This document shows positions 1 to 64,000 of a stretch of 64,000 nucleotides of DNA, piece after piece. The DNA is taken from NCBI GenBank assembly GCA_006503475.1, contig RSEH01000130.1, positions 62,001-126,000 of the forward strand, written 5' to 3'. This DNA comes from Stentor roeselii. Lineage: Eukaryota > Ciliophora > Heterotrichea > Heterotrichida > Stentoridae. The notes under the pieces are model-generated. The model worked only from the letters and a program-made list of their open reading frames with translations. It ran no database searches and was not told the origin of the DNA. Numbering within the stretch: the first letter of the stretch is position 1; each line of letters opens with the position of its first letter. The position numbers were made by a program, and so were the translations under genes.

Positions 1-1513
1 AAACGACACGATTTACTACTTCTACACTGATGAAAAAGGACTTGTAAGGACTGAAGCAGGTGAAAGGTAATCATTAAAAAGTTCGATAAAAGACTTCCTT
101 ACATCGACTGAGATTTCAAAAAACCCTGAAAGTCTTCCGAACTATTTATTTATTGACTCTAAATGCAGAATTTGCCTTAATTCGAAACAAGCTCGTGAGT
201 TTTGGAATGTTTCGAAAAGTGAGAGAAAGATTTTAACAAAATTTGTGAATGTTGGAAGAGAAAAGACTTTTAAACTTAGGGTTTATTGGAAACTCAACTA
301 TGGGATGAGGTTTTTAGCTATTTCGGGTCAAATGCCTTCTTTGAGTAGAAGTGCGAAGATAAGATCTGTTAGGCCTTTGGGGATCTATAAGCATAAAGTC
401 ACTGAGTATAATTTTGCTGGAAGATTACTTAGGACTTCTTTTGATCCCACTTTACCGAATAGAAGCTCGATTATTACTAGATCAGATAGAGGACTACCAA
501 CAAACCTCGGACAAGACCAAGACCTAAGCCAAAAGTTTCTCCTAAAATTTAACGATAAAAAAAACGAAATAGTAGAACTTCCATCAGTCACAGGAATTCC
601 AGAGACCTTCGAAAACATCATAAAATTTCTAAACCAAAACATTCTACAACCTTCCGCAGAAGATTTAAGCCAGCTCAACGGTAAAAGCGAAAACACATTA
701 TCAGAGTTAATCGTTGATTTCATAATGGACAGTTCAGATCACTGGTGGTTTTTAAAGTGCAAGAACTACAAAACCAACTTAAAAGGTCCAAGGTACTCCG
801 AGTTCTACCATTCCAGGTCTCTAAACGAACACCAAATTCTAGCCCAGTCAAAAAAAAGCGAGAAACTTGAAATGGCTTCAATAAAATCAAGACTAAAAAA
901 CTTAGGTGATAAGTCGAAAGAGCTTTTTAATAAACAGAAACTCAAACTAGGAGTAAAAAATCTTTTAGACTTGAATAGAGAGTTTTATATCTCTCATTTC
1001 GGGGAAATTAACTTGGGACATCTTAGAAGTGTCAGTCCACTTTATAGTGAACATCTTGATTTGTACTCGAGGCAGATTGATCGAGTCGCTGCACATTATG
1101 ATGAGGTCAGGAAACAGGCGAAAAAAAATAAAGTCGAGACTAAGAAAAGGCAGAGCTTGATTGAAAATGACCAGAAAATAAAGGTCGTTGTTTTTAATGC
1201 TATTCAAAAAATTCAGACTTATCCTGATTTGATTAAAATTTTGGATATGTCTGAAAGTTTTTTTACGGGATTTTTGAATAAGGTACTGGAAGAAGAAAAA
1301 GCACTTAGCTTTTTTATTAAGTTTCAGTCAGCTTATGAATGGAGTATTAATTTAAAGCAGTTTCGAGTTATTGCTAATATTTTTGCTGAGGAGTGCAAAA
1401 GGTTTGGCTTATTTGCCAATAGGGATTTTTTGATTTTCAATAAATTTTTACAGAAGTATGAAAATTTGATGTTTAGGTCAAATTTTCATCTGTCTACTAA
1501 TGCTGGTAGTTAA
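1..1513 (+). CDS. 5'-partial gene of unknown function, one intron
   Basis: Open from the left window edge in the frame that starts at base 2, interrupted only by a TAA that falls inside a 15-nt intron (67-81). After removal the reading continues without a break to TAA at 1511-1513. The start codon lies outside the window. I do not recognise the protein. An early segment has two short Cys pairs (CRIC, about 35 residues before the first GTG codon). The middle and C-terminal parts are Lys/Glu-rich and mostly helical with no obvious membrane segment. The intron ends in AAG, less usual than TAG or CAG, so the 5' model is less certain than the rest. Bases 475-900 are A+C-rich and 900-1510 are G+T-rich within the same frame. 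Confidence 0.6.
67..81 (+). other. 15-nt intron (unknown gene 1)
   Basis: GTAATCATTAAAAAG. It contains the only in-frame stop between base 2 and 1511, and its removal keeps the frame (phase 2). TAA sits at intron positions 9-11 as in the other introns, but the 3' end is AAG. Confidence 0.5.
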
Positions 1514-2261
1514 GATAAAAGTGAAGATTTTTGATGAATAGTTTTATTGATTTTATCTAATTATTTGAGGTAATATCATGATATATGAATATTTTTAATG
1601 AAATTTTAGCCTAATTAGAAAGTACTCCTGAGATTAAGTTAATTAAAATGGCGCATTAAATTTTTTTTTTATACTATGATAGTTTTGGAATGATTCAGTT
1701 TTTTGATAGATAGAAACTATTTTTTTATAATACTGATAATTGCTAAACTTTAACTTATCTTAGAGAAGATTTTCAATGAAATTTGTTAATCGTATTTTTT
1801 TGAGAATATATTATTTTGGTTAGATTACTCATACTTCATCATGGACAGACTTAAATATAACTCTCAGTAAGAGGGCTAGGATAATCTCTGATCTTTGATA
1901 ATGTATAGTTCTGATTTCCGAATTTATTAAAAATGAATATTGATTCATTTTTATAAGAAATATAATTTAATTTAGATTCTCAAAGTTAATTATGATAAAA
2001 ATCAATATTTTTCAAAAACTAATTCATTCCAGAATCTGAAAATCCAAATCAAACTAAAAAAGAAAACGACTATAACCATATCAAGTTATTTTCAATTAAA
2101 TCCTAAATTGATTTTCGATAATTACTTGAAAATTTTAGGTTTAAAGTAATAAAAGTTTGAAAAAACTAAGAAATACAAGTAATTTTGCAATAAGATCAAT
2201 ATTTTGATATTCTTATTGTGTCACTGAAAAAATGGAAACTTACTGATTTTTTACTGTATAA
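1514..2261. other. AT-rich intergenic stretch
   Basis: About 750 bp, strongly AT-rich, with no open frame of useful length, no tRNA boxes and no repeat I could see. It must contain the 3' end of the upstream gene and the promoter of the ABCA gene; the last bases before the ATG read TGTATAA. Confidence 0.5.
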
Positions 2262-5200
2262 ATGTTTTTTAGGCACTACCGTTGTATGCTATATAAAGAC
2301 CTCTTGCTGGTGAAAAAAAGCCTTGCAGGGTCAGCTCTTTCATTTATATTCCCAATTTTACTTATGATCTTACTTGTGATCCTCCGAAAAACTACAGATT
2401 ATTCGACTTACGATGAAGAATCTTTAAAAGATGTCAACCGTGCGCTTCTGAGCTCCAATGTGACTTTATTGAAAGATTTCTACCAAAACAAAAGTAGCCA
2501 ACCACTGTCATATTGTTTTGATTATATCAACAGAGGGATGGATTTGAAGTATTCGATCATTTCGGATGACCCGGACTTTACTGAATATTTGGATACAAGG
2601 ATTCAAGAACTTTCAAATATGAGGGGAGGGATGAGTTCTTTTAAGAAGCTTGAATTCGCGAAAGAGGGGGATTTAATTGATTATGTGAAAGACTCCGATT
2701 ATAATGACTTGCCTAAAATTTGCTTCGCAGTCATCTTAGAAAAAAAATCAGGGTGGAAACTAAAGCTTCGATACAACTTTACAGAGAGCATCCCTCAAGA
2801 CTACGAGAAAATCGGAAAATACATCCCGATCTTTGACCTATCTGACCAAAACTTCATAAAAGAAGACCTTACAACAGCTCCAACCGACTATCAAGATCTT
2901 TTCATTGAGACAGGATTTTTGCCAATAATGAACTTTTTCGATAACTACATATATCAAGAAATCTACGGCCAGGAAGAAGACCTCAAAGCCTATGTGATAA
3001 AAATGCCATTCCGTGAGTACACCGAAGATTCTTTCAACAATGTGATAAGACAAACTCTTCCATTTTTCATAATCCTTGCAAATCTAATCCCAGTGGCTCG
3101 ACTAGTCTCCCAACTAGTATCCGAGAAAGAAGAAAGAATAAAAGAATTGATGTTGATCATGGGCCTATCATCTAAAGCCTACTGGTTCTCAATATTCACC
3201 ATTTACTTCATATACTACACCCTGGTCTCACTGATCCAAGCAATCATCCTAAAATTCGGAAGCGTTCTTCAATACAGCGACTTCGGCCCAGTCTTCTTAC
3301 TTCTCTGGCTATTCGGCCTGACCTGCATATCCTTCTGCTTTCTCCTCAGTTCTTTCTTCTCCAAGTCCAAGTCAGCAGTAGTCTTCACAATCATGCTCTT
3401 CCTCATAATCTATGTCCTGAACTTCTCAGTTGATGACCCTAAAATTTCAGCAAGTTCGAAAATGGGAGCGTCGATAGTCAGCACAATTTCTTTAAGTCTC
3501 ACTTGTGGCATCTTTGCCGATTTGGAATTGGGACAAATTGGAGTTAGAGCTTCGAATGCTTCTGATATTTTTTCGAATTATTCTTTTAGCATTTTCTGTT
3601 TTTTTATGTTGCTTGATTTTTTTGCGATGATGGGACTTGCGTGGTACTTTTCGAATGTCATTCCAGGAGAGTGGGGGCTTAATAAACCTTGGTACTTTAT
3701 TTTTACAAGAAGGTTTTGGTGTCCTAGGAAAGGAAAAGTTATGGATAATGAGGGAAAGGAAGTGAATTTACAGGAAAACTTTGAAGAAGTTGATTTTGAA
3801 CTGAAAACACAGATTACTGATGGAGATGCTCTTGTGATTAGGCAACTTTTTAAGAGTTTTAATGGAAAAACTGTTGTGGATCAGCTGGATTTAGATATTT
3901 TTGAAGGGCAGATCTTTGCTTTGCTTGGACATAATGGTGCAGGGAAAACCACAACAATTTCAATGCTAACCGGAATGATACCCGTAACAAAAGGTGACGT
4001 TCATTATCAGTCAAGTTCCCTTTCCACTGACATGGAAGGACTACGAAAGTACATCGGTCTATGCCCGCAGCAAAACGTATTATTCAGCAACCTAACCGCC
4101 TCAGAACATCTAAAAATTTTTTCCGAAATCAAAGGTCAAACCGACGCCACCCAAATCGAAAACGAGTCAAAACTTCTCCTAAGCGATTTAGGAATTCTAG
4201 ACCTTTACAACAAGCCATCAAAATTTTACTCAGGGGGTCAGAAAAGAAAATTATGTTTAGCTTTAGCACTGATCGCGAACTCTAAAATCGTTCTTCTTGA
4301 CGAGCCCACTTCAGGAATGGACCTGACAGCCAGACGAAAAATGTGGGACATGTTAAAAAATCAAAAACAAGGAAAAATCATTATCTTGACGACTCATTAC
4401 ATGGAAGAAGCTGATGTCCTCGCTGATCGAATCGCGATTCTTAACCATGGAAAGACTAAATGTTGTGGAAGTCCTTTGTTTTTGAAGAATAAGTATGGAA
4501 CTGGATTTTATATTAAATTATTGAAGACTCAAGATATTAAAGTCAATACTGAAGCTGATTGTGTTGAAAAGTTCTTTGAGGAAAATCTTCCTGAATCGAA
4601 GTTGATCAGTCATGTTCAGGCTGAAATCACTTTTCAGATACCTAAAAGTCTTTCGGAGAATTTGAAGAATTTTTTTGATTTACTGGATCGAAGACTTGAA
4701 GAACTTGGATTACTTAGCTATGGAATTTCTGTTACTACGCTTGAAGAGGTTTTTTTGCAGGTTGCTAAACAGGAGAATCCTGAAGTTGTTGATGGAATTG
4801 AAGGGGGATTGGAGATTAAAAAGAATGAAGGGTCTCAGGATGAGATTTTAGTTGATGAAGGTGCTTCTATGAACTTAAAGTTTAAACTAGAAACGGACAG
4901 GGTCATAAAAAATAAATTTTGCAGTGACTTCTGGGTGTTATCCAAAAAACGTCTGTTGATGACGAAAAGAGACAAGAAAAGCATCTGCATGGAAATAATG
5001 ATCCCAATATGTCTAGTTCTTGTAGGTCTCCTAGTCCGATTCAACAAGCCAGTCCTTCCCGAATTCAGTGCCTATCACCTAACAATAGACAAATTCTCTA
5101 CACCTCAAAAGCTTTTATTCGGTTACGAAGACACGAAACCTCTGATTCAATCATTAGAATACAGTAAAATAGAACTGATAGAAAATAAAGACCTTGAATC

Positions 5201-7334
5201 ATTCACAGATTACTTGACTTCTCACTGGGACATTTCCCCAAAAAGAATGGGTTCATTTTACAAAAAAGACGAAAATTCCGAAGTATTTATATTCAACAAT
5301 CAAACCTCTTTCCAGTCCTCAGCAACTTTTTATACCGCCTACACGACTGAACTAATAAGAAAAGTAGACCCAGAGTACAACTTAAGAGTTTACAATCATC
5401 CTTTTCCCCCAACTCACGACATGGACGACATTTCATTCTTGGGAGACGGGTTCATCGGGTCTTTGTTGGTAGGCATGGGCTGCACTTTTATTCCAGTAGG
5501 CATAATCGGTTTAGTTATGAAAGAAAAAGAGCAGAATATAAAACATCAGCATGTGATAAGCGGCATGTCACTTTGGAGTTACTGGACTTCTTACTTTATG
5601 TGGGATATAATAAAGCATATTCTTCCATCTGTTATGATTCCTGTTCTCACACTTCTCTTTGATTTACAAGCTTTTGTGGATAAAGATATAAAAATTTATG
5701 CCCAGTTTTTGTTGATATTGATATTTGGCTTCGCGATTTTTCCATTCACTTATGCTTCGACTTTTGTTTTCTCGAAGTTTACAACAGCTCAATATGTTAC
5801 TATTGGAGTCCATTTCTTAACTGGCTGCGCACTTCCCAGTGCTCTTTATGTTATGCTCTTCTATAAATCTTTGAGGAATACTGTTAAGGTCCTCGTCTGG
5901 GTTTTCAAGGTCTTTCCTAACTTTTGTCTTGGATGGGGAGTCATGAATATTGGATCAGGAAAAAATATTGCGGCTTTGTATGAGTTGGATGAGGAAATGA
6001 ATCCTTTTAATTTACAGTCTGCTGGAGGGGATATTTTGGTTCTTGGAATTATTTGTCTGGCTTCTACTGGACTTTTGATTTATGCTGAGTACCGGTCAGC
6101 AAACCCAAGATCATCTAAATCATCATCATCAGAACCAAAGCAAGTATCCTCTCTAGACGAAGACGTTCAAAAAGAATACATAAAAGCCCAAAACTCAGAT
6201 CAAAGGCAAGTAAAAATAAACATAAGAGGAATATCCAAGTCCTTCAAGACCTTCACAGCAGTGAACGATTTAGGTTTCAACGTAGAAGACGGTGAATGTT
6301 TCGCCTTACTCGGTATAAACGGAGCAGGTAAGACGACAACCTTCAAGATGCTAACAGGTGAACTCCATCCATCATCAGGTCAAATCTTCATCGGCGGTTC
6401 AGACGTGACCCAAGAGCAGTCAAAAGCCCGTACATTAATCGGATACTGTCCCCAATTCGACTGTTTAAACGAAACCTTATCCGTCCAAGAGCATCTCTTT
6501 CTTTACTCTTCCTTAAAAGGCATTCCAAAGCGCCTTGCCCCAGAGCTAGTCCAAGACATTCTCACAGAACTCGACCTCCAAAGCTACAAAAAACAACTCG
6601 CAGGAAGACTCAGCGGAGGCAATAAAAGAAAACTTTCAGTCGCCATCGCACTTATTGGAAACCCAACCGCAGTCCTTCTTGATGAACCTTCTGCTGGAAT
6701 GGACCCTGGAGCAAGGAAAAAAATGTGGAAGGTTTTGGGAAAGGTGAAAAAAAATGGAGCTGCTGTTATTTTAACTACTCATTCCATGGAAGAAGCTGAA
6801 GCTCTCAGTGATCGAATGGCAATCATGGTCAGGGGACAGTTTAAGTGTATTGGGTCTGCTAGTTGGATTAAGAATAAGTTTGGAGAAGGATTTGAAATTG
6901 AAGTTAAAATCAACTCGCCTGGAGAGAAAAAAGTTAAAAAAATGATGGAAAAAATAGAAAATCTTGAATTTTTAAGTGCTTTGAAAAAACTTAAGGCGGA
7001 GTTTTTAAGTGAAAATATTGGATTTCGAGGGTTTAGAGATGGGACTTCTGATGATTTAAAAGTTTTGGTTGTTAGGGTTTGCATTGAAAAAAGGGGGGAA
7101 AGGTTTAAGAAGTGGCTTTTGGAAAAGTTTGCTTATATTGAAGAAGTTGAACATTTTTTATCTTATTATAAATATAATGTGCAAAAACAGGATATTCAGC
7201 TTGGACATGTTTTTAGTGAAATTCAGGCTAATAAAGAAAAATTGAAAATTTCTGAATACTCTATCAGCCAAACTTCACTTGACCAGATATTCGATACTTT
7301 TGCACGATCAGACATTATCTCAAATCAAGAATAA
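2262..7334 (+). CDS. ABCA-family full-length ABC transporter
   Basis: 1690 residues, a single exon. The order is TMD1-NBD1-TMD2-NBD2, as expected for a full-length ABCA lipid/sterol-type transporter. The start (MFFRHYRCMLYKD) matches the usual ABCA opening with basic residues before the first membrane helix and a large exocytoplasmic loop after it. NBD1: Walker A GHNGAGKTTT near residue 556, signature YSGGQKRKL, Walker B LLDEPTSGMD near 680, H-loop TTHYMEEAD. NBD2: Walker A GINGAGKTTT near 1351, signature LSGGNKRKLS, Walker B LLDEPSAGMD, TTHSMEEAE. All catalytic residues are present, so it should be active. The exact substrate cannot be inferred. The ATG directly follows TGTATAA. Composition switches repeatedly along the gene (see findings). 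Confidence 0.95.
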   Translation: MFFRHYRCMLYKDLLLVKKSLAGSALSFIFPILLMILLVILRKTTDYSTYDEESLKDVNRALLSSNVTLLKDFYQNKSSQPLSYCFDYINRGMDLKYSIISDDPDFTEYLDTRIQELSNMRGGMSSFKKLEFAKEGDLIDYVKDSDYNDLPKICFAVILEKKSGWKLKLRYNFTESIPQDYEKIGKYIPIFDLSDQNFIKEDLTTAPTDYQDLFIETGFLPIMNFFDNYIYQEIYGQEEDLKAYVIKMPFREYTEDSFNNVIRQTLPFFIILANLIPVARLVSQLVSEKEERIKELMLIMGLSSKAYWFSIFTIYFIYYTLVSLIQAIILKFGSVLQYSDFGPVFLLLWLFGLTCISFCFLLSSFFSKSKSAVVFTIMLFLIIYVLNFSVDDPKISASSKMGASIVSTISLSLTCGIFADLELGQIGVRASNASDIFSNYSFSIFCFFMLLDFFAMMGLAWYFSNVIPGEWGLNKPWYFIFTRRFWCPRKGKVMDNEGKEVNLQENFEEVDFELKTQITDGDALVIRQLFKSFNGKTVVDQLDLDIFEGQIFALLGHNGAGKTTTISMLTGMIPVTKGDVHYQSSSLSTDMEGLRKYIGLCPQQNVLFSNLTASEHLKIFSEIKGQTDATQIENESKLLLSDLGILDLYNKPSKFYSGGQKRKLCLALALIANSKIVLLDEPTSGMDLTARRKMWDMLKNQKQGKIIILTTHYMEEADVLADRIAILNHGKTKCCGSPLFLKNKYGTGFYIKLLKTQDIKVNTEADCVEKFFEENLPESKLISHVQAEITFQIPKSLSENLKNFFDLLDRRLEELGLLSYGISVTTLEEVFLQVAKQENPEVVDGIEGGLEIKKNEGSQDEILVDEGASMNLKFKLETDRVIKNKFCSDFWVLSKKRLLMTKRDKKSICMEIMIPICLVLVGLLVRFNKPVLPEFSAYHLTIDKFSTPQKLLFGYEDTKPLIQSLEYSKIELIENKDLESFTDYLTSHWDISPKRMGSFYKKDENSEVFIFNNQTSFQSSATFYTAYTTELIRKVDPEYNLRVYNHPFPPTHDMDDISFLGDGFIGSLLVGMGCTFIPVGIIGLVMKEKEQNIKHQHVISGMSLWSYWTSYFMWDIIKHILPSVMIPVLTLLFDLQAFVDKDIKIYAQFLLILIFGFAIFPFTYASTFVFSKFTTAQYVTIGVHFLTGCALPSALYVMLFYKSLRNTVKVLVWVFKVFPNFCLGWGVMNIGSGKNIAALYELDEEMNPFNLQSAGGDILVLGIICLASTGLLIYAEYRSANPRSSKSSSSEPKQVSSLDEDVQKEYIKAQNSDQRQVKINIRGISKSFKTFTAVNDLGFNVEDGECFALLGINGAGKTTTFKMLTGELHPSSGQIFIGGSDVTQEQSKARTLIGYCPQFDCLNETLSVQEHLFLYSSLKGIPKRLAPELVQDILTELDLQSYKKQLAGRLSGGNKRKLSVAIALIGNPTAVLLDEPSAGMDPGARKKMWKVLGKVKKNGAAVILTTHSMEEAEALSDRMAIMVRGQFKCIGSASWIKNKFGEGFEIEVKINSPGEKKVKKMMEKIENLEFLSALKKLKAEFLSENIGFRGFRDGTSDDLKVLVVRVCIEKRGERFKKWLLEKFAYIEEVEHFLSYYKYNVQKQDIQLGHVFSEIQANKEKLKISEYSISQTSLDQIFDTFARSDIISNQE

Positions 7335-9734: not shown

Positions 9735-10721
9735 TTAGTCTAAAAAGTCCAAATCTGAATAAACCTCTTTCAGGGAAAGGATGTAGTTATGAGACTCCAG
9801 GTCTTCTTCACTTACACCCCGGGTTGTCAGGAAGTCACTATAAAAGGACTCCAGGTTTGATGACTGGAATAATTTGCAGAGGTACTGTTGACTTGCTTCT
9901 ACTTTAAACCCTTCTGGTAAAATCAAAGGGTCTGAATCGTCTCGTAGAAAAAAGGCTTCAGTGAAAATAACACCCTGGTTTGAAAAGTTTCTGTTGTTTA
10001 GAGAAATTTCACAGGTGTTGCCGTGAGAGAACCTTAGAAACTTTTCAATGTAAAAAGACATGACTTCGAAGGACCTGTATTGGAAGCTTAAGACTTCTAG
10101 GGCAAGGGCTACTTCTGAAAGGTCTGTCTTGGACTTGACCTCTGTGCAAGGCACTAATAAAGCGTTTCCATATTCGGAAAGGTTCCAAATCGCTTTTCGC
10201 TCTTCCAAGGAAAACTTTTGGTTGAAGGATAAAATAAGGTTTGGGGACTTTGGGTAAAAATCACTTAAAATTTCTATTCCTTGGATGAATAGAGAGGAAA
10301 AAGAAGAGTCTAAAAGAGTGTGAATGCCTTGAAGTCGGTCAGAGGACTCAGAGAAGTAACGGATTTGGTCTTCTAGCTCTTCTAATGGTGAAAAATCTCG
10401 ATAAACTGGTAAAATGTTCTTTCTTGAAATCATTCCTGAGAGAAGGTCTGTCCATTTCTCTTCTGTGCTTTCGTCTTGGTTGATTTTTTGGATTTTTCCT
10501 CCCCAGAGAACTTCTGACTCTTGCTTTGAGGTTTGTACTGGAAAGGAGATGCTTTCTTTTAAGTCGATTCCTAACATTCGGGGGAAGTAACTGTCTTGGG
10601 ATTGGATGAAGCATGACTGGTGGAAGGATAATGGCTTGGATGACATGTCTTGGATTTGCCAGAAATATGATGATGAGAAATTTCCATAAAACCCGAGGTT
10701 AAATGTAAAGATCTCTTTCAT
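9735..10721 (-). CDS. Misato/DML1-like protein
   Basis: 328 residues. The ATG at 10721 was chosen because an upstream TTG is not a likely start; the sequence before it is TTGTTTATT. The N-terminus MKEIFTFNLGFYGNF then YFWQIQD matches the Misato segment-II pattern (R-E-I/V-x-T-x-Q-x-G-x-x-x-N...WN-x-Q), and FPRMLGIDLK follows at the expected place. Misato proteins combine a tubulin-like and a myosin-like segment and act in mitochondrial distribution and, in some organisms, spindle or TRiC function. At 328 residues it is much shorter than animal homologues (over 500), so the C-terminal part is reduced or diverged. It sits 3 bp upstream of the hydrolase gene and 27 bp downstream of another minus-strand gene. 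Confidence 0.65.
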   Translation of the reverse strand: MKEIFTFNLGFYGNFSSSYFWQIQDMSSKPLSFHQSCFIQSQDSYFPRMLGIDLKESISFPVQTSKQESEVLWGGKIQKINQDESTEEKWTDLLSGMISRKNILPVYRDFSPLEELEDQIRYFSESSDRLQGIHTLLDSSFSSLFIQGIEILSDFYPKSPNLILSFNQKFSLEERKAIWNLSEYGNALLVPCTEVKSKTDLSEVALALEVLSFQYRSFEVMSFYIEKFLRFSHGNTCEISLNNRNFSNQGVIFTEAFFLRDDSDPLILPEGFKVEASQQYLCKLFQSSNLESFYSDFLTTRGVSEEDLESHNYILSLKEVYSDLDFLD

Positions 10722-12598: not shown

Positions 12599-12603
12599 GA
12601 AAG

Positions 12604-12675
12604 GGCCACTCCGGGAATTGAACCCGGGACCTCTCCGACCCGAACGGAGAATCATACCACTAGACCAAGTAGCCT
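12604..12675 (-). tRNA. tRNA-Pro (CGG)
   Basis: 72-nt cloverleaf on the minus strand with no intron. The acceptor pairs GGCTACT with AGTGGCC; the D-loop contains TAGTGGTAT; the anticodon stem CTCCG/CGGAG encloses loop TTCGGGT, anticodon CGG (reads CCG); the T arm is CCGGG-TTCAATT-CCCGG. It closely resembles eukaryotic tRNA-Pro. CCA is not encoded. Confidence 0.95.
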
Positions 12676-16409: not shown

Positions 16410-16720
16410 TGATTTTTCCTAAACTGATCAATAAACCCACTCTCCTAAATCAATCCAAAAACCACCTGTCTCAAAATACCCTCCAAAATCACCAAAAAGC
16501 CCCATCATTCCCACTCCTCAAAAAAACCCAAAAAATCCCATCCCTATCACTCCCTTTCAAACCCCAAAAAATCCATTCCCAAATCCCACAACCCCAAAAA
16601 AACCAAAAAATATCCAATTCCTAAACAAAAAAAAACCCCCTTCTCCAAAATCTTAAAACCACCCAAACCAACCTCAACATTCCCTTCAAAAACCCTTCCA
16701 TATACAAAAATTTAAAATAT
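16410..16720 (+). promoter_or_regulatory. G-depleted C/A-rich 5' flank of the centrin-like gene
   Basis: On the coding strand 16561-16620 has 21 C and 0 G; 16441-16500 has 21 C and 2 G. A 71-codon open frame runs through it but encodes only a Pro/Lys/Asn/Ser-rich low-complexity string, so it is not called as a gene. A promoter role is inferred from position. Confidence 0.4.
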
Positions 16721-17432: not shown

Positions 17433-17476
17433 GGTTGTTTGGCCGAGTGGTCTAAGGCGGTAGCTTTAGGCGCTAT

Positions 17477-28960: not shown

Positions 28961-29066
28961 ATTATTAACCAGTCAGATCGTTTCAAATAACTTCAAAACC
29001 TCTAAATACCCAACAATAAACCTCTAAATAAATTAATCTTCTAACAACCTCTCTTAATTACCGAAA

Positions 29067-31802: not shown

Positions 31803-31930
31803 TGATGTTAGAGTTAGGATTATCTTCTGATTTTAGTTCACTATATCCCCACACCTTGCTATCCTAAAATTTTCACTAAATATCCCAATCATCACCTAAA
31901 TCTCTTCCACACTAATAAACAATTCACAAA

Positions 31931-43731: not shown

Positions 43732-45729
43732 TCAAAACTTCGCTAAAAACTTATCATTGAACTTTTTATACCTTCTCCAGTTTTCAATCCTCTCTTCAAT
43801 TTTCTGATATCTTTTCCTGATCTGCTGTCCTTCATCCACCGCGATCTGAAGCATTTCCTGAATTTCCGAAAGTGGGTTCCGATCAGCGAATTCTAAAGAA
43901 ATCATTTGAATTTCCTCTTTAATATTAATTTTCAAGTCCTTCGACCTGATTTTTCCAATTTGTCCCTGAACATTGACTTGAAGTAAGACCTTCATTTCCG
44001 CAAGTGACCTGATAAGAGTCCTTTGTTTTTTATTGACTTCTTCAGTTATTTCATTCCAAATTTTCGAAAAGTCGTGTTTAACCTTGTTGATCATGCCCAT
44101 GCCCATGCCAAGCAAAAAGCTTTCATGAGGAGAAATGACTGAAAACATTCTTCTCGTATGCTTTACTATTTCAATATCTCCAAAGTACTCCCCAGGGCTT
44201 AAAACTCGAAAAGTCGTGTTATTTTCACCGAAAATATAATGAACCACTCCTTGACCAATGAAGTAAATATAGTCCGCATAGTCATTTTCCGCATAAATCA
44301 CCTCGTTTTCAATGAAATAATGCGCTTCTAATAATGGAAAAATCGTAGAAACAAAAATCTGATCTTTATTATTGAAAAATTTCAGAGATTTGAGAATTCC
44401 TGAATACATTCTCGTCGCTATTTTAAATTTTAAATTACCTGAAAGGTCTTGAATTACTTCATTTTTTAAAGAAGATGAATAAGTTGACCTCATGATTCCG
44501 AGTTTTATTTCGTTTTCGATTTTGGACTTGGTGAACTTGTCAAGACCCAGTTCGTCGACGAAGTTGTCTAAAAGAGAAAGCTTTTGGTCCATCAGGGCTC
44601 TTTTCATGTCGTATTGGGAAAGGGAGGTTGAGAGAGAACTGATCACAAAGGATAAAAAGTAAGTACTTATGCACATCCAGACGAAAACTATGCATTTTTC
44701 TAGGATTGTTGATGGAGTTATCTCACCGTATCCTATTGTTGCTAGTGTCACGAATGAGTAGTATATGCATGTCAGGTATATATCTCCTAGAGGCTTGTCT
44801 TCGTAACCGTATCTTACTATCCAGCAGTCGTAGGAAAATTCAGAGAATACGCAGGTGTAGTAGAAGAAACAAGCGAATATGTGGATTGATATGATTATGG
44901 AGAGAATTGTGGTTATTGCTCTTCTGACAGTGTAAGTCACTTTAAAGAAATTCTGAATGCCAGACAAAAGACTATCTTTCTTCGAATACCTGAACAACTT
45001 GACAGCTCTCGTAACTTTAAGCAGTCTTCCAACATTCCTCAACTTAACCAGCCTGATAATATTATCATACCTCGGGTAACTCGAGTTGTCATCTAAAACA
45101 ATATCAATGATACCAGAAGGAAAAGATGCAAGAAGATCAAGTAAAAACCAACTCTTCAAATAATTCAAAGCAATTTCTTTATTTCCTAGATGAATAGCGC
45201 CTTCATTATCATAAAATCCAGTGAAAAAGTTGATAATCACATCAACCAAAAAGCTAAAATCAATAATCATGTCAACTACAAACAGCGGGTCCCCTGGCTT
45301 TGTCTCTAAAAACGCGAGGTTGACAGGAGTAACAATACAAGAATAAATCAGCCAAACACTCAAATAAAAATCCCAAAGATTCCTAAAGAAATTCTCAGGA
45401 TTAATTGAAAATCTACACTCAGACCCTTGAAACGTTTGCTCTGAATCCCCTTTTCTGCTTGAAATGAAAAACTTTTTCAAATCTGCAGTGTTAAAAGACT
45501 CTTTTCTCAAGTTTAAAGCATTTTCTGACCGAATGATCATTCTTTTAATTCTGATCTGGCTGACGATTTTCGCTTTAACCCTCTTCCAAACTGATAAATA
45601 TTTAAAATTTTTGTTTAAAAGGCTTTTTTCTTCATATTTATCAAGTTTTCCACTTTCATCAGTGATTCCGATATCATGATTCGGTAGAACTTTCTGTTGT
45701 TTTTGAAACATTTTGAGTAACACAGACAT
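43732..45729 (-). CDS. CNBD-type voltage-gated potassium channel
   Basis: 665 residues from the ATG at 45729 (after AATAACTTGAAA). The six membrane segments include S4 with regular basic residues (RLVKLRNVGRLLKVTRAVKLFRYS) and a pore TLATIGYGEITPS (GYG, K+ selective). The cytosolic C-part holds a C-linker and a cyclic-nucleotide-binding domain (FPLLEAHYFIENEVIY ... LSPGEYFGDIEIV). The phosphate-binding cassette is changed: GD in place of GE and TRRMFSV in place of the usual R-T/S-A, so ligand binding is doubtful, as in EAG/Erg channels. Such channels are many in ciliates and set membrane excitability. It ends with TGA. An in-frame ATG at 45765 overlaps the divergent gene. Confidence 0.9.
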   Translation of the reverse strand: MSVLLKMFQKQQKVLPNHDIGITDESGKLDKYEEKSLLNKNFKYLSVWKRVKAKIVSQIRIKRMIIRSENALNLRKESFNTADLKKFFISSRKGDSEQTFQGSECRFSINPENFFRNLWDFYLSVWLIYSCIVTPVNLAFLETKPGDPLFVVDMIIDFSFLVDVIINFFTGFYDNEGAIHLGNKEIALNYLKSWFLLDLLASFPSGIIDIVLDDNSSYPRYDNIIRLVKLRNVGRLLKVTRAVKLFRYSKKDSLLSGIQNFFKVTYTVRRAITTILSIIISIHIFACFFYYTCVFSEFSYDCWIVRYGYEDKPLGDIYLTCIYYSFVTLATIGYGEITPSTILEKCIVFVWMCISTYFLSFVISSLSTSLSQYDMKRALMDQKLSLLDNFVDELGLDKFTKSKIENEIKLGIMRSTYSSSLKNEVIQDLSGNLKFKIATRMYSGILKSLKFFNNKDQIFVSTIFPLLEAHYFIENEVIYAENDYADYIYFIGQGVVHYIFGENNTTFRVLSPGEYFGDIEIVKHTRRMFSVISPHESFLLGMGMGMINKVKHDFSKIWNEITEEVNKKQRTLIRSLAEMKVLLQVNVQGQIGKIRSKDLKINIKEEIQMISLEFADRNPLSEIQEMLQIAVDEGQQIRKRYQKIEERIENWRRYKKFNDKFLAKF

Positions 45730-54369: not shown

Positions 54370-55629
54370 TTATATGCATAAGTTCATCATTTTTTTCACT
54401 TCTGAATTGTTTATATCAAACACATAAAAACTCATGGCTTCAGTCAACACGTAAACTCTTGCAAAATGATCTACTTCATTTACATTTAGACCGAAAATCC
54501 TTGAATCTAGATTAAAAGTCATTTCCAATACAAAGCTGTAATCCCACCCAAGAATACTTTTTGGATTTCTTGACTTGCAAAGTCTTAAGAATATTACTTC
54601 CGATCCGAACTGGTTGCCGATTATGCATAGTGAGAATTTTTCGATGTAGTTTAAAAGAGACAAACGGGAAAAATTCCCGACGTTTATTTCGAGATTTGGG
54701 ACGTAAACTGCTAAGACATGCATTTTTTTACCTTTGTTGCAAGCAGTCAGTCCAGGGTCAATCAAATGAACCGAGCCCTTCGAAGTCTGTATCAAAAGAT
54801 GTTCATCAAAATCCTTCGAACCCTCAACAATAATCTTCTCTTCCACCTCCATAAAACTCTCACTATCATCATCAAAGTCACTACCGGATTCTGGAATTCC
54901 ATCAACTGTTCTCGTGATTCTTCTAAAATATTCCAAATATTCACTAACATTAAAAGTTCCACTAATAGCGAAACTGCCATTGATATAAGTAGTCGGCAGG
55001 TTAGACTTATACCGATTATGCAAATTCTGAATATTCGAAGGGTGAAGTTTCTTTGCATGAATAATCGCAGAGCGAGAAATCCAGACCACCCCCCAGCCCC
55101 ATTCCGTGCAGGGCCGACAAAAAATTGACCCGCTCTGCATTGAAGAGACTTGAACTGATGTGTCGATGCTTGTGCTTGCAAGGAAACCTTTACTGTTGAA
55201 ACTGAGACTTGGGATGTTGTGAGAGTGCTCGATTATCTTCACAGTTGAATAAGTGTCTAGGTCCCAGATTCGGATTTGGTGGGTGTTTGAACCAACTGCT
55301 AAATGGTTTTGGTATAGGGAGCAACTCCAAACTGAACAGTCTTCGAAGTCTTCAGAGAAGTTGTCGAGCTTTATCGGACTTCTCGCCCAATTTTCCGGAA
55401 AAAACACAAAAATCATTCCACTATGAGTCAAAACAACCAGAAGCTGCTCTGACTTATACCAACCAATCATCAAATGATTGATCCTCGAGTCAATCCCATG
55501 AGAATCTTCAAGCTGTAAAGTATGTTTTCCACAATATCTAAAGTTATCCGGAAAGTCAATAACCTTGAGTTTATTTTCATCAGAAATATAGATTTCTTTA
55601 AGTATTTCATTGACAACCAAGACACTCAT
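54370..55629 (-). CDS. WD40-repeat protein, CRT10-like
   Basis: 419 residues. WD-type blades are visible: SEQLLVVLTHSGMIFVF, NHLAVGSNTHQIRIWDLD, HSHNIPSLSFNSKGFLASTSIDTSVQV. The sequence DCSVWSCSLYQNHLAVGSNTH and HNIPSLSF with the following EWGWGVVWI resembles the CRT10 family (regulators of ribonucleotide reductase in yeast), but the match is from motifs only. An acidic Asp/Ser/Glu linker occurs near 255. Start 55629 after TTTAGAGT. Confidence 0.6.
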   Translation of the reverse strand: MSVLVVNEILKEIYISDENKLKVIDFPDNFRYCGKHTLQLEDSHGIDSRINHLMIGWYKSEQLLVVLTHSGMIFVFFPENWARSPIKLDNFSEDFEDCSVWSCSLYQNHLAVGSNTHQIRIWDLDTYSTVKIIEHSHNIPSLSFNSKGFLASTSIDTSVQVSSMQSGSIFCRPCTEWGWGVVWISRSAIIHAKKLHPSNIQNLHNRYKSNLPTTYINGSFAISGTFNVSEYLEYFRRITRTVDGIPESGSDFDDDSESFMEVEEKIIVEGSKDFDEHLLIQTSKGSVHLIDPGLTACNKGKKMHVLAVYVPNLEINVGNFSRLSLLNYIEKFSLCIIGNQFGSEVIFLRLCKSRNPKSILGWDYSFVLEMTFNLDSRIFGLNVNEVDHFARVYVLTEAMSFYVFDINNSEVKKMMNLCI

Positions 55630-55759: not shown

Positions 55760-58700
55760 ATGAAATCCTTCAAAGCTCACTCGCCTGTAGTCCAGCCAAA
55801 AAAATCTCAACTCGTGCCCCTCAAGCAAAAATTTTCCAAAACTTCAGTCAAAGAAGTCCCGGGCTGGCGACTTCCATCTTCACTCTCGCCGACATCAATG
55901 AAAATAACACCTTCTAAACTCTCAAAAGTTTCTAACAAGCGAGATTTTCATTCTCCTCTTCTTTTCGCAACTGATGAACGACTTCCAGTTATTTTAAGCC
56001 CGGCCAGTCACAAGCAATTAACTCAAAAGCGAAACCTAAACAAGCAGACTTTAGAAGTTCCAAGCATGAAAAATGAAAAATTTCTAAAAAAAGACGGCAG
56101 GTTTAAAGAGGCCTTATTGAAAAAAGCGAAAAATTTTCAGTCTTCTGTTCAGGATCTTCCGACTTTTGATAAAACTTGTGAGGACCAGAACAAATCAACT
56201 CCTCAAAAAAGTGCTCAAGTTGTCAATATGAATAACTTTACAAATGACAGTCTCAGTGCGTTGAGTCCAAGCAAAAACCAGTCATTAAGTCCTTCTTTGA
56301 GTACCAAGTTCACTTTAAGTGACCGACTCTTGAAAGACTCACTTTTAGACGTTAAGGTCAAGTCAGACTCAGGAAAAGTCCTCAACAGGAGAAAGTCAGA
56401 TACTCTTGCCCGTCCTAGACTTAGAATTGAAAGTAAAAAAATGACTGCTGAAGCTTTTAAAAACTTTTCTAAGTCGAAAAGTTTTGAATCTGATTCAGAA
56501 AGCGAAATTTCAGAGACGGTTTCTTCGGAAAGTCAAGAAAATCCAGGGGAAGAAATTCAGGTCTTGCGTAAAAGACTTGAACCTCTTGGAATTAGAAGTG
56601 ATCTTTCAAGAAGGTCTTTTCAGGGAAGGATTAGACCTAGCGTTTTTTTAGTTCCAGGAAAGCAGATTGATGAGTTGAAGAATGGGAAACGATCAGCGAG
56701 TTTTCAGAATTCGTCGAATAGCAGGTCTAGCTATGGTCTTGGTAATGAGGATGAGAATGAAAAAAGTATTAAAAAGTTAACACCCAGAAAATCTGCTACT
56801 AAGGAAATTGCTTCTGGGAATTTTTTAACACTTGGTGGTGAAGTTAGGAGAAGTGTTACTGAAAGGAAGTCGGTGAAAAAGGATTCACGTCAGGCCACTC
56901 TCTTCGCGAACGACCACATCACAACAAACCCAGGCCACCTTCAATCCAGTCTGAGCCCATCCCAAACCCTTCGAAAGTCATCAGGTCATCCATCTTTAAA
57001 CCCATCAAAATCACCAAGAGTAAGTCGAAACCAGACTCAAAAGCCATTAGAGCCTCTTCAAGACTTCGAACAACCCAGCCCTTCCTCAAAGCCCTCGGAA
57101 AAAGACGCCAAGTCGCCCCACCCATCAAATCCTTCATTACCTCTGCGAAGGTCTCCAACAGTGAACCTTGACCAAGAAAAGCATTCTCAAGTCTTCACCT
57201 TAAAAAAGTTCAAATCAGAAAAGCAAATAAAAAACCCTCGAAACCCCAAAAGTAAAAAAGCGACATTAAAAGAAGATCTTGGAACATCAGAGGAAAAAAT
57301 GATGAAAATGATGATAAGAATCACTGAAGCACCTGACAATGATAAAAATGTTTATTATCAGAATAATAACTACCTGGTTTCAATGAGTCCTGAAGGGAAC
57401 ACTGTGGAAGACGACCCGCATCATTTGAATATTTTGAACAGTTACGCGAAACATAGAGGGAAAAAGTCAGATTTGCCTTCAAGATCACGAGCGAGTAGTC
57501 ATGAATGGTCTAAGGACCCGGTTTCTACAGACTTGGCAAAGACAAAGATGAACATCAAGAAAAACTTCCGAAAAACTGAAGCCAATATTCAAGATATGAG
57601 CAAAAAGTACTCTCTTAGTCCAAGACAAAGTAAAAACGAGTCAAGTTCAGATAGTGATGATATTTACAGCATCGTCTCAAATGAATCTGGGCAGTCGAAA
57701 CGATCAACAACAAGAAAAACAACTGAAACTCGAAAAGCAGGGAAAAAACCTTCAAACCCTCCTTTTCGTAAAAGCACTTTGAAGAACCCGATGTCTTTAA
57801 AGTTCTTCAAATCCTTCATCATCAGCGAGGTTCAGAAAAAACTAGGGACTTTAGACCCGGTGACCAATTTTCTCTACAACTTCTCTTTTTCGATACTAAA
57901 ATGCATTCAAACACTCTCTCACATCACTCTTCTCAGAAATAACAAAAAGGTCCAAATGAAAAGAATAGCAAAACCCGCAGGTCTTGAATATCTCGAAAAA
58001 GATTCACTTTTAAGAGACAAACTAAAAGTAAATAAAATGAAAAGCAGAGAATCACGATTTTTTTCTACTCTTGTAATTCCTGTAACCATCAAAAATAAAT
58101 CACATAAAAAAAGCGAATCTCGAAAAAGTTTAAAAAAATTCAGGTCTGTTAAAAATAAAGAAAAAAATCCCAGATGCTCTTCTGAACTAGAAAAACTTGA
58201 AGAACTTGAAGAAATCTCTGATTTTTCCAGTTCTCAGACAAGTTCAAGCAGTGAAGAAGAGGAAAACTTAGTGACTCGCACAAGAAAAAGCATTTTATAT
58301 GAACTAGCAAAACAAGAACTCACCCTTCAAATCGCTCGACAAATTCTTGAAGTCAAAGACGATGAAGACGAGCCAAGTCCTGAAAAAGACCTTCAAAAAA
58401 GTGAATCTGAAGAAACTGATGAAGAAATCGAGGATGAACTCGCTTTATTATCAAAAAAACTCAAAACTTCTACTTCGAACTTCGCCTTCGGACCTGATAT
58501 TAACTTCAAACAAATGCAGAAAAATCTCATGATTTTCAGCTTTAAAGAACTTGAAGAAGGGTGCTTTGAAATTGATATGGAAAACTTGATGAGGGAGTCA
58601 CAGAAGAGAAAATTTATTGAAAAAAAAATATTGGAAAATGAACTTCAAAGTCATGAACGGAAAGACTTTCAAGTCGCTGCTGAGGGAAATATGACTGAAG

Positions 58701-60327: not shown

Positions 60328-62736
60328 ATGGATGAAAGAGAGATCAAACTAGAAGAAACTAAAGAAGAAAAGACTAGATATGGCATGTGGGCAGGAGTAG
60401 TCGTGCCCTGCATTCAAAATATGATTGGAATCACTTTATTTGTGAGAATGCCGTGGATTGTAGGAGAAGCAGGAATTGGAATGACTCTGGCCATTCTTGG
60501 AGTTTGTCTTAGCACCTCGCTGATCACCACGCTTAGTATGAATGCAGTGGTCACTAATGGTAAGCTATCGACCGGTGGGTGCTACTACGTCCTTGCCCGC
60601 TCACTGGGCGCTTCAATCGGAGGCTCAGTGGGTACTTTATACTTCTTCGGCCAAGCCACTTCCTCCTCTCTCTACCTAATCGGAACTGTAGAAATCTTCA
60701 TCGACAGCACAGGGGACGAGATAGTCAGCAAAGCAGCTGACATTCGCATTCTAGGAATCGTTTTATGCGTAATTCTCTGGCTAATCAATGTCGGATTTCA
60801 AAAACACATAAAAAAAATCACGATTTTCTGTATATTTATGTTGATTCTTGCACTACTCACAGTTTACATCGGGTTATTCACAGCAGGGGCACGTGGAGGG
60901 CTTCCAAATGATATAAAAGGTCTGGACTCTCATCATTTTTCTTCAAATTTCGACCCTGAGTACTCCTCAAACGTGCGTTTTCATGAACTTATCACGATTT
61001 TCTACCCGGCAGTCATCGGGTTCTTTGCAGGGACGTCGAAATCGAAAGAACTTCGAAATCCGAATACAGGAGTGCCGAAAGGAACAATGATTGCGATTTT
61101 AATAGCTTCTTCTGTTTATCTTTCTGTTATTTTACTCGTTGGAGGTGTTACTTTAAGACCTGAGTTAAAGGAAAACTTTGCTATTTTGTTTACTGTTGCT
61201 TGGCCTACTCCTTTTTTGACTACTGCTTGTGTTTTAATTGTTTCTTCTGGAGCAGCTCTTCAGTGCATGGCTGGCGCTAGTGAAGTACTTTTTTCTATTG
61301 CGAATGATGATATTTTGCCTTTGGGATGGATTAAAAGTGAACTAAGAGCACTTCATTTGACTACTTTTTTAGTTTCTTGCTTGGTTTTAATTGGAAGTTT
61401 GGATGATGTGGCACCTGTTATTACGATGTTTTTTCTATTGTTTGATGCTTCTATCAACTTTGCTTGTGCTTTGCTGAGTCTTTTGAATAATCCCAGCTGG
61501 AGACCTACTTGGCCTTATTTTCACTGGACTATTGCGATTTGTGGAAGTATTTTGTGTATTGTTATCATGCTTTATATTAGCTGGTGGGCTGCACTTATTG
61601 CTTATATGCTTGCTATTGCTTTGTATTTGTAAGGGGTATTCAGGTATATTGATATGAAAAATCAGGCGAAGAATTGGGGAGATGGGTTGACAGGTCTACG
61701 TCAAGAGCGTGCAAAACGAGCAATGTTAGGAGTACACCCAAAGCTAATGGACCACGTAAAGAACTGGAAGCCTCAACTCCTCATAATCGACAGCCTAACC
61801 GATTCAGGTATCCCTCTCCACCCAGGTTTAATCTCCATAGCAGACCAGTTAAAAAAAGGCAACGGTCTGATTATCTTCGCAGGTATCCAAGTGGATTCCG
61901 AAAACTCTAAAAATTTCCGAAAAGCAAAAGAAAACCGAAACAACCTCCACGACTACTTCTTCAACAATCGCCTTGAGGTGATAAGCAAGGTGATCCTAAC
62001 AAAAAAGGCTTCAAAAGGTATAAAAAACGTTCTTCAAACAGCAGGTTTAGGAGTCTTAGAGCCCAACTGTCTCCTTATTCCCTGGCCAGAAAGCTTTTCA
62101 AGTACTGAGTCCTTCGAAAAGATTTTAAGTTATTCAAGAAAAGTCGGCCTTACAACTCTTTGCGCGAAGCCTTTGGAGTTATTTGAAGACCGTAAGTCAA
62201 GTTTAATAGGAACGATTGACATTTGGTGGATTTACTACGATGGAGGCATTATGGGACTCATCACTTTTTTACTTACTAAACATAAAACCTGGAAAAATTG
62301 CTCACCTCGCATTTTTTTAGTAGTTCCTGCGGAACTTGCTGAACTTGGAGAAAGTTGTTTAAAGGCTTTGAAGGAATGGCTCAGTAATAATCGTGTTTTA
62401 GTCAATGTTTATACGGAAGTTGTTTATGTGCCGATGGTTTTACTTAGTGGGTACACTGCATATGGCATTAGGATTAAGGAGAAAGGAGCGAATTATGAAC
62501 CGTTTTTTTTTCCGGTGGATGGCGCTTATGAAATACCTGCTGATCCTAGAGAACTTAATTCACAGATCATGGGAATGAGCGCTCATAGTGAATTGGTTGT
62601 CACTGTCATGCCTTGTAAACTCAAGTCACAGACTTCTGAAGACTTTTTGAAGTATGTGGATGGAGTTATTTATGGAATTAAAAGAGTCATTATGGTCGTT
62701 CCTACTACTTCTTCGGTTGTTACGGATTATAATTAG
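60328..62736 (+). CDS. Potassium-chloride cotransporter (KCC, SLC12)
   Basis: 797 residues, two exons; intron 61629-61643. Twelve hydrophobic helices. SLC12 landmarks: MWAGVVVPCIQNMIGITLFVRMPWIVGEAG at helix 1, LSTGGCYYVLARSLGASIGG, FYPAVIGFFAGTSKSKELRNP, ISWWAALIAYMLAIALYLYID, and in the C-domain KNWGDGLTGLRQERAKRAML and KNWKPQLLII. These are those of KCC rather than NKCC: short N-terminus and IDMKNQAKNWGDG. It exports K+ with Cl- for volume and osmotic control, plausible for a freshwater cell. Splicing joins the membrane and cytosolic parts. Confidence 0.93.
61629..61643 (+). other. 15-nt intron (KCC gene)
   Basis: GTAAGGGGTATTCAG, phase 2. Joining gives IALYLYIDMKNQAKNWGDG, which matches KCC. 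Confidence 0.93.
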
Positions 62737-62806
62737 GATTCACGGTTTTTATTTGGTTTTGGATTTAGAAAGTCATTAATTTATGGAATTTTTTATGTTG
62801 CAGGGA

Positions 62807-64000
62807 TTAGACTTTGTTTGGAAATTGAAACTCTTTTAGCTCGGTTTCGAGGGTTTGGATTATTTCTTCGAGGTTTTCTTTTTCTTTTAGCATTATGTCT
62901 TTTTCGGATTGGAAGTCTTCTTGGCATTTATCATAGCGCTCCTGCAATATCTTCAACTTCTCAGTATCTTCAACAAGATACTCCATATCACTTCCAGAAG
63001 CCCGACTAACTTTTTCAGATTTCCTTTCATACCCTTTAACTTTATTCTGTAGCCCTTCCAAACTTCTTTCATATCTCCTTTCATTCCCTTTCAAATAATC
63101 AATTTCCTCATTTTTCTCCTTCAATACCTGTTCCAGCACCTTAACTCTATTCTTAAGACTTTTATTTTCACTTGCAAATCTCAAATTTTCCTTATTTAAA
63201 TCAGCCAACTCAACACTTAACTTAAAAATTTCCTCATTAAACAAATTTTCTCTTTCTTCAATTTCCAAATAAACCTTCTTAATCTCCTTCTGATGTTTTT
63301 CATTCAAGTTATAAATAATTAATTCAAGTTCTTTCGTATAATGTTCATCAGACTTCGATATTTCCAGTTGTCTGCTCAATTCAACATCATCAGATTCTGA
63401 AAGTCGATAAGAAATTTCTATTTTTATTGCAGAATCTGGAGAAATCGGTGAAATTTCAGGAGAATTCGAAAGTTTAGCAAAAGTTGAGATCGGTTTTTCA
63501 AGTTCATTTAAAATCAGAAGGATTTTTTCCAGGTAAGACGTGGGAACTGCTGAGAAATAAAAGAATTTATTTGGAATTTTTGAGTCTTTAGGCGGTTTTG
63601 AACGGTTTTCGATGAGTTTTTGGAAAAGATTTACAAGTTTTGAAAGCTTTGGGTAAGAAATTTGGAGTTTTTGTAAGTTGCATAGTAAAAAGTCGTGATT
63701 TTCAAGAAGGTGGAAAGGTAGAACTGAGGACTCTTGTAAGGCATGTCCTGAATTTAGCGGGTTTGAATTGGGAGGAAGTGAGCTGAGGTAGATAATCGAG
63801 TCTTCTAAGGACTTAGGGTTATTTTTAAAACTATTTTTTTTACTCACGATGATTTCAATTAATGACGAAAGCTGATTTTCAACTTTTAAAGTCAAAGCAG
63901 CGAATTTTTCCTCTACTTTTTCAGCGAAAGTCTGAAAAAGACTTAAAATGTCCTGGGCTTTATTTTCTAAAATCGTTTTAAGTTCAGAGGCGTTTAGATC
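62807..64000 (-). CDS. 5'-partial coiled-coil protein
   Basis: Open from the right window edge (the reading is GAT CTA AAC ... on the minus strand, DLNASELKTILENKA) to TAA at 62807-62809, about 397 residues visible. The start is outside the window. The C-terminal ~220 residues are a coiled coil (EDTEKLKILQERYDKCQEDFQSEKD, LEEIIQTLETELKEF). The middle contains a Ser/Pro linker (SNSPEISPISPDS). No domain recognised; centrosomal or trafficking coiled coils are possible. Confidence 0.75.
   Translation of the reverse strand, partial: DLNASELKTILENKAQDILSLFQTFAEKVEEKFAALTLKVENQLSSLIEIIVSKKNSFKNNPKSLEDSIIYLSSLPPNSNPLNSGHALQESSVLPFHLLENHDFLLCNLQKLQISYPKLSKLVNLFQKLIENRSKPPKDSKIPNKFFYFSAVPTSYLEKILLILNELEKPISTFAKLSNSPEISPISPDSAIKIEISYRLSESDDVELSRQLEISKSDEHYTKELELIIYNLNEKHQKEIKKVYLEIEERENLFNEEIFKLSVELADLNKENLRFASENKSLKNRVKVLEQVLKEKNEEIDYLKGNERRYERSLEGLQNKVKGYERKSEKVSRASGSDMEYLVEDTEKLKILQERYDKCQEDFQSEKDIMLKEKENLEEIIQTLETELKEFQFPNKV

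Follow-up and report, generated by a model that had tools for sequence, protein, structure and literature searches.

The two strands of DNA are known to differ in base composition (strand skew) near replication origins, at the ends of genes and around break hotspots. Here we analyse such a skew in the ciliate Stentor roeselii, both in a stretch of 64,000 nt (called the window: contig RSEH01000130.1, C37 in our numbering, positions 62001-126000) and in other pieces of the same genome, which comprises 44.4 Mb in 522 contigs. The + strand alternates between a G+T-rich composition (K state) and an A+C-rich composition (M state), also inside genes, and the two kinds of switch, written K->M and M->K, differ in sharpness. 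The data consist of assembled sequence, namely 290 kb of the 44 Mb together with short tubulin loci. We know of no skew jump this large (at selected steps about 1.0, where the full scale is 2) that repeats about every kilobase within single frames. For an internal repeating skew no description was found in the literature searched, ciliate replication included and mostly without subscription journals, in agreement with the original prediction, an earlier note on the window that knew of no description of the pattern; the gene-end version, on the other hand, is known in fungi.

In most unicellular fungi the coding strand is C-biased at the 5' end of genes and G-biased at the 3' end (McLean and Tirosh 2011, PMC3315797). 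As in our data, the fungal skew reaches outside open reading frames (ORFs), whereas the middle of the gene is intermediate, the AT skew is largely constant and internal repeats do not appear in the accessible part of that report. In S. roeselii the third-position T-A and G-C skews change together, and the jump recurs in long ORFs about every kilobase. At yeast origins the skew also changes sign abruptly and returns gradually, with an A+C-rich right side, but the jump reported there is about 9% and the return takes about 20 kb (PMC3459929). Our values are about 1.0 (selected steps) and half a kilobase. Candida albicans has one centromere per chromosome. At these centromeres the jump is likewise very large and abrupt (74%) with a short return of about 3 kb, according to the same report (PMC3459929). 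In our case there is a point about every 1.2 kb, with a reach of about 0.5 kb. At human meiotic breaks, resection leaves the forward strand single-stranded on the left and the reverse strand on the right (PMC7615360). This mutated single strand has the geometry of the C-depleted strand here and C>T in CpG context is among the elevated types, but the human signal consists of new mutations at PRDM9 hotspots and also includes C>G and A>G, human resection extends 1-2 kb per side, and a base-composition pattern along the genome is not described there (PMC7615360, as far as the accessible part goes).

Alternation of strand composition inside genes

The alternation of strand composition is confirmed. 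Autocorrelation of third-position keto content was calculated in the 30 window ORFs of at least 250 aa and compared with a null model in which synonymous codons were shuffled within each gene. The z values are +43 at lags of 1-20 codons, about -17 at 161-200 codons (near 500-600 nt) and +6.4 at 361-380 codons, far outside the shuffles. When the same kind of code was applied to E. coli and phage T4 (50 kb each), the absolute z was at most 2.6 in 10 of 10 bins. With C|Y as the C share of pyrimidine-ending codons (T|Y likewise) and G|R as the G share of purine-ending codons, C|Y and G|R are anticorrelated over 284 fifty-codon windows of the window ORFs (r -0.42; shuffles -0.04 +- 0.04). A larger sample of 260 kb, consisting of C37 and 13 further 10-kb pieces of the genome, has a pooled GC-skew autocorrelation trough at about 550 bp, and keto skew also bottoms at about 550 bp when the 13 pieces outside the window are pooled. 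T-A skew alone, taken over all bases in the 260 kb, shows no oscillation and its autocorrelation is slightly positive throughout.

All seven G/C line counts on which the original prediction was built are exact (in the ORF at 71..1513, the ABCA transporter and the ubiquitin hydrolase, or USP, gene), and the GC-skew sign it gave for ABCA is correct in 8 of 8 domains. The third-position GC skew of these domains is, in order, -0.53, +0.48, -0.38, +0.50, -0.31, +0.17, -0.60 and +0.49, and the third-position T-A skew shares its sign in all eight. The flips are not confined to gene edges. In the interiors of 19 long ORFs, with 600 nt trimmed per end, the C|Y autocorrelation is -0.042 near 490 nt and back up to +0.011 near 940 nt. 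Three dynein heavy chain loci (L034-L036, three of 28 matches, each a 10-kb open frame) contain several cycles per frame; for example, C|Y per 150 nt in L034 runs 0.12, 0.20, 0.13 and then 0.81, 0.56, 0.42, 0.28, 0.12, 0.13, 0.07. Their pooled autocorrelation has z of +83 at 45 nt, -28 at 585 nt and 6.6 at 1755 nt; around 1.1 kb it lacks a positive peak (z 0.7 at 1125 nt).

Positions of the switches were obtained with a hidden Markov model (HMM); a mononucleotide version was noisy owing to protein coding, and a codon-aware version was used instead. It gives 210 K->M points in 260 kb, i.e. one per 1.24 kb, or about 36,000 if extrapolated to the genome. The spacing between successive K->M points has a mean of 1.2 kb, a median of 1.1 kb and a coefficient of variation of 0.49. 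The repeat of 1.0-1.2 kb that had been proposed is therefore correct as an average but not as a fixed period, which is weakened both by this variation and by the dynein frames.

The independence of genes that had also been claimed is only partly valid and not supported as worded: flips occur inside genes, but gene ends have preferred states. In stop-to-stop frames of at least 900 nt, the coding strand opens with 300 nt of A+C-rich composition in 59 of 78 cases and closes with 300 nt of G+T-rich composition in 59 of 76, and an ATG-anchored profile is likewise A+C-biased at gene starts. Of 66 closely spaced gene pairs, 28 have K->M between them, 8 have M->K, 13 have K on both sides and 17 have M on both sides, so that K->M between neighbouring genes is a tendency and not a rule; divergent pairs have M on both sides in 10 of 19 cases. 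Such biases at starts and ends, like the C-to-G change along unicellular fungal genes reported in PMC3315797, would be expected if transcription diverged from the K->M points (promoters, 3'-end antisense or cryptic internal starts) and a start-site bias made the coding strand C-rich. We consider this explanation improbable, as the internal dynein switches would need cryptic bidirectional starts about every kilobase. The flipping of third-position T-A with G-C in all eight ABCA domains, compared with the largely constant AT skew in fungi, is a further objection, though one qualified by the all-base T-A autocorrelation without oscillation.

Sawtooth shape and substitution chemistry

A codon-aware log-odds step finder was run over 290 kb, and steps were kept at a score of at least 30 (median K->M step width 33 bp within 3 score units). 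It was found that the numbers of both types are similar (150 K->M and 135 M->K), but at scores above 60 there are 32 K->M steps and only 1 M->K step (Mann-Whitney p 9e-12). Since selection bias affects the values at called steps, cross-validated and step-free slope tests were added. When steps are detected on pyrimidine sites, G|R falls from 0.40 to 0.21 at K->M (n=111) and rises from about 0.31 to 0.41 at M->K (n=83); when they are detected on purine sites, T|Y changes from 0.76 to 0.63 at K->M (n=168) and from about 0.62 to 0.70 at M->K (n=147). The step-free slope distribution at 120 nt has a skewness of 0.59 (bootstrap 0.44-0.70). At selected K->M steps the third-position GC skew drops from +0.57 to -0.45, a jump of about 1.0. 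The shape is a sawtooth, with abrupt K->M and gradual M->K, an asymmetry which was missed when the pattern was presented as a two-state alternation. The polarity is real because reading the opposite strand does not exchange K->M with M->K, and of all the observations this asymmetry of the two switch types says most about the mechanism. K->M points resemble sources, and M->K zones resemble meeting places of neighbouring fields. Inverted segments arising from a scrambled germline gene order, each with a long-range germline skew, would by reasoning also yield sign-alternating stretches inside genes. A mosaic of this kind in its simple form predicts equally sharp switches of both types, which the sawtooth contradicts; we reject that form and give the idea as a whole next to no weight.

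Most of the signal is exchange between C and T, to which a complementary exchange between G and A adds a weaker share. The C-depleted strand is the + strand left of a K->M point and the - strand right of it. Within ORFs, at most 120 bp from called steps, C on this low-C strand amounts to 0.16 for K->M and 0.27 for M->K, while on the other strand at the same sites it is 0.52 and 0.47. The change from K->M to M->K amounts to 0.62 logits on the low-C strand (CI 0.47-0.78; n=100 and 115) and -0.21 logits on the other (CI -0.34 to -0.09), i.e. the gradient is mainly on one strand. C depletion is greatest beside K->M and fades over about 500 bp, and the two strands cross at about 525 bp. The response also depends on the 3' neighbour, even across a codon boundary. 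The odds ratio of T over C between states is 10.9 before G, 6.1 before A, 3.7 before C and 2.6 before T, and purine-ending codons show the same average order (G > A > C > T) on the opposite strand, more weakly. The response is strongest at third codon positions, but C at codon positions 1 and 2 also differs between states (0.137 vs 0.196 and 0.160 vs 0.208), and noncoding 100-nt stretches, with ORFs under 200 aa counted as noncoding, track the state of the coding sequence next to them (rho 0.48, p 1.6e-9, n=143). The C/T bias, the context order and the shifts in noncoding DNA and at codon positions 1 and 2 therefore fit strand-specific C-to-T pressure, and the suggestion in the original prediction that such pressure alternates along the strand is supported.

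CpG methylation was considered as the sole cause and rejected. A search of the genome for C5-methyltransferase gave no match, while the same search was positive in 10 of 14 control genomes, and all four 3' contexts respond at pyrimidine sites. The genome has one uracil-DNA glycosylase match.

Comparison of paralogs shows to what the state belongs. Aligned dynein paralogs (39-43% identical) have no common phase, with state correlations of 0.01, -0.10 and -0.25. Beta-tubulins L002 and L009 are identical over 190 aa and have 48% of codons in common, and their states differ. Three tubulins of one subfamily partly share state (r 0.51-0.73), and for the remaining tubulin pairs r ranges from -0.63 to +0.83. 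From this comparison the strand state seems to be a property of the DNA locus rather than of the protein, with slow turnover. Between beta-tubulins L008 and L009, whose states differ over codons 100-190, C/T differences there are 15:1, the A+C-rich copy having C where its partner has T at 15 sites and the reverse at 1, against 2 A/G sites. These codons were picked by C content, so the C/T ratio is partly built in and it is the scarcity of A/G differences that is informative. The corresponding C/T counts for codons 1-100 are 11 and 5. L008 lies at the end of contig C201 and L009 at the start of C305; over 190 aa their proteins are 99% identical, 72% of codons are common, and the third-position differences are 32 C/T and 8 A/G.

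A peak at third codon positions and the partial sharing of state by closer tubulins of one subfamily are what selection on codon choice, RNA structure or protein domains could produce. We nevertheless regard selection as highly improbable: noncoding DNA and positions 1-2 follow the state, the neighbour effect crosses codons, dynein phases differ and so do the states of identical beta-tubulin stretches.

Candidate sources of the K->M points

Three bidirectional processes share the right handedness, namely resection, replication with an A+C-rich leading strand and the C bias at gene starts. The explanation that we tentatively prefer, without calling it probable, is a germline mutational imprint from position-stable K->M points, produced at break ends with 5' resection or at an equivalent single-strand gap. 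The duplex would be repeatedly opened or cut at discrete stable points, roughly one per 1.1-1.2 kb, with about 0.5 kb of single-stranded DNA exposed per side, belonging to the + strand on the left and to the - strand on the right. In this exposed DNA cytosine would change to thymine more often than elsewhere, most beside the point and less with distance, and over evolutionary time the + strand would become G+T-rich left of the point and A+C-rich right of it. Where neighbouring fields met, the sign would flip gradually and a sawtooth would result. We infer from the sequence pattern that C-to-T mutation is the cause, that exposure comes from 5'->3' resection at double-strand breaks or from an equivalent single-strand gap, and that it happens in the germline micronucleus; what fixes the points is inferred in the same way. 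Break resection predicts that the exposed, C-depleted strand is + on the left and - on the right, and that the effect is greatest at the point, fading and mainly on one strand, and both were found. The genome contains one Spo11/TopoVIA-like gene.

To our knowledge, no origin density approaches one per 1.2 kb. Dense and efficient germline replication origins at the K->M points, with an A+C-rich leading strand and forks meeting in the M->K zones, would nevertheless give the form seen here, as a sharp jump with gradual return is expected of origins with diffuse termination. The leading strand is reported to be A+C-rich in S. cerevisiae, K. lactis and C. albicans (PMC3459929), and the absence of a motif at K->M also favours origins. 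The 44 Mb would have to contain about 36,000 efficient origins (an extrapolated number) at intervals of 1.2 kb, and the third-position skew jump of about 1.0 at selected steps compares with 9% at yeast origins in the same report (PMC3459929). Fork mixing should moreover shift both strands alike, but the equal relaxation between points that origins predict was not found at called steps, where the change on the low-C strand, in logits, is about three times that on the other. We rank resection above replication because this one-strand gradient (0.62 vs -0.21 logits) fits a fading exposure better than fork mixing, and we consider origins a doubtful source.

Several points weigh against resection as well. 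The evidence for it is a set of assembled sequences, in which breaks and a role of the germline nucleus are hypothetical. Points inside genes would have to persist long enough to rebuild synonymous composition, and the holding of position is the weakest link. Contrary to a pure one-strand model, the other strand is not constant (-0.21 logits), and if the source were meiotic, rare sex would have to contribute unusually many mutations. In the ORFs of the 290 kb, Glu and Lys codons are nearly unresponsive to state (odds ratios 0.92 for GAG and 1.22 for AAG), unlike the purine-ending codons of Gln, Leu, Ser and Pro, which respond; this contrast fits the 3'-neighbour effect in part. Values at called steps carry the selection bias mentioned above. 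The HMM places 59% of K->M points and 77% of M->K points inside called ORFs, which hold 72% of bases, while a second finder that weights noncoding DNA more places 48% and 40% there, compared with 75% of bases. The intergenic preference of K->M is thus method-dependent, because the second finder puts both switch types mostly outside ORFs.

Finally, no motif explains the K->M positions in 6-mer tests (150 points, whole data and inside ORFs). TA- and AT-rich words lead the whole-data test, and TA-containing words lead weakly inside ORFs, without a focal peak at the step. GGTCAG/CTGACC was tried as a candidate and dropped; it occurs 10 times near the 150 points, where 1.6 are expected, but is outside the 14 top whole-data 6-mers.

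A possible source of fixed positions is offered by internal eliminated sequences (IESs), germline inserts which would be absent from the somatic assembly. In the heterotrich Blepharisma about 40,000 IESs are reported for a 41-Mb somatic genome, of which about 70% are intragenic and three quarters are TA-bound (PMC9942856, PMC9942806; both sources seen in part). If the K->M points were IES insertion sites, the inserts would fix the positions and source breaks, forks or transcripts, which makes this explanation compatible with the others. It would account for stable, motif-free intragenic points that differ between deep paralogs such as the dyneins, and the Blepharisma density is similar to one K->M per 1.24 kb. 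On the other hand, TA inside ORFs does not rise focally at K->M (0.062 and 0.055 in the adjoining 20-bp bins; range over all 20 bins 0.047-0.069; n=78 of 150 steps inside ORFs), and TA-bound inserts there are not supported. Around 103 points of all kinds, the TA count within 30 bp is 504 compared with 437 +- 44 in flanks, a mild rise, and 514 would be expected if 75% of the 103 points carried an extra TA. Because IESs are excised while the soma develops, something more would be needed for their effect to be inherited, and IESs in this species are hypothetical. We judge the insertion-site explanation unlikely. A search for the piggyBac excisase (PF13843) gave 0 matches, as did its control, and is uninformative.

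A broader proposal, speculative and rather unlikely in our estimate, is that the base composition of the somatic genome preserves, like a fossil, the traces of fixed germline initiation points without a visible motif, one per about 1.1 kb and by extrapolation tens of thousands in number, possibly sites of eliminated inserts, which source a bidirectional strand-polar process such as break resection or replication. If it were true, a germline insert or break map would be readable from somatic sequence alone. The pattern implies a strand-polar mutational process that acts from fixed points on a kilobase scale in a germline and that shapes codon use as well as first and second codon positions. It may reveal where germline DNA is repeatedly opened or cut, and may allow hidden germline events (breaks, origins, eliminated inserts) to be mapped from somatic sequence. 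In this lineage the local strand state distorts analyses of codon usage, gene prediction and synonymous divergence.

Features of the window

The window is gene-dense and eukaryotic, and Pfam matches were obtained in 6 of 7 long ORFs scanned (ABCA transporter, ubiquitin hydrolase, ion channel, microtubule-binding, HEAT-repeat and protein kinase). At a score of at least 30 it contains 40 K->M and 39 M->K steps, and 16 of the K->M steps reach at least 60, three of which are ABCA domain edges. Table 1 lists these 16 together with the weaker ABCA edges.

Table 1. Genes, domains and steps in the window (K->M steps are drawn about 18 bp to either side of the step)
Feature	Position	Strand	Remarks
ORF, 480 aa	71..1513	+	Steps at 493 (K->M) and 909 (M->K)
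K->M step	475..511		Score 62
ABCA-type transporter ORF, 1690 aa	2262..7334	+	Pfam ABC_tran, ABC2_membrane_3, R1_ABCA1
M domain in ABCA	2753..3429		Step calls
K domain in ABCA	3429..3936		Step calls
M domain in ABCA	3936..4381		Starts at K->M step, score 66
K domain in ABCA	4381..4869		Step calls
M domain in ABCA	4869..5529		Step calls
K domain in ABCA	5529..6087		Step calls
M domain in ABCA	6087..6670		Starts at K->M step, score 67
K domain in ABCA	6670..7304		Ends at K->M step (score 68), 3' end of ABCA
K->M step	10662..10698		Score 68
K->M step, outside called ORFs	16415..16451		Score 63
Ubiquitin hydrolase (UCH/USP) ORF	20035..22695	-	Pfam UCH 6.1e-42; line counts at 21421 and 22441 confirmed
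K->M step, outside called ORFs	24949..24985		Score 66
K->M step, outside called ORFs	28939..28975		Score 64
K->M step, outside called ORFs	31819..31855		Score 67
K->M step	32554..32590		Score 70
K->M step in protein kinase ORF	37505..37541		Score 66
K->M step in ion-channel ORF	44915..44951		Score 72
K->M step	55359..55395		Score 60
K->M step	56867..56903		Score 60
K->M step	61674..61710		Score 72
K->M step	62912..62948		Score 66

Two transfer RNA genes are present, tRNA-Pro (CGG) at 12603-12674 on the - strand and tRNA-Leu (TAG) at 17432-17513 on the + strand. Positions 13501-16500 are low in GC (0.22-0.28 per 500 nt, compared with about 0.36 for the window), and no ORF of at least 150 aa is listed there.

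There were 52 intron candidates, 21 of 15 nt and 31 of 16 nt. The 16-nt set was dropped as likely chance frameshifts. The 15-nt introns are of the GT..AG type and 20 of the 21 candidates begin with GTA; the one without this start was also dropped, leaving 20. K->M is not clearly tied to these 20 (median distance 697 nt, compared with 577 nt at random; share within 50 nt 0.15, compared with 0.05 at random). Two 15-nt introns are readable in the minus-strand gene near 9180 and 8930. Blepharisma also has short introns, mostly of 15 and 16 bp, and reads UGA as tryptophan (PMC9942806, seen in part), whereas the long frames here are open with UGA as a stop, as in the standard code. The introns would by themselves point to a heterotrich ciliate, and the frames to one that, unlike Blepharisma, probably uses the standard code. 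For the dynein heavy chains, 22 of 28 DHC_N2 matches fall within single frames that are 3,856-4,658 aa long, and the match is free of standard stops. In one further dynein match (G000:C390:74083-75312, frame 4289 aa), a single TAG lies inside the matched domain, and this could be an intron or a broken copy.

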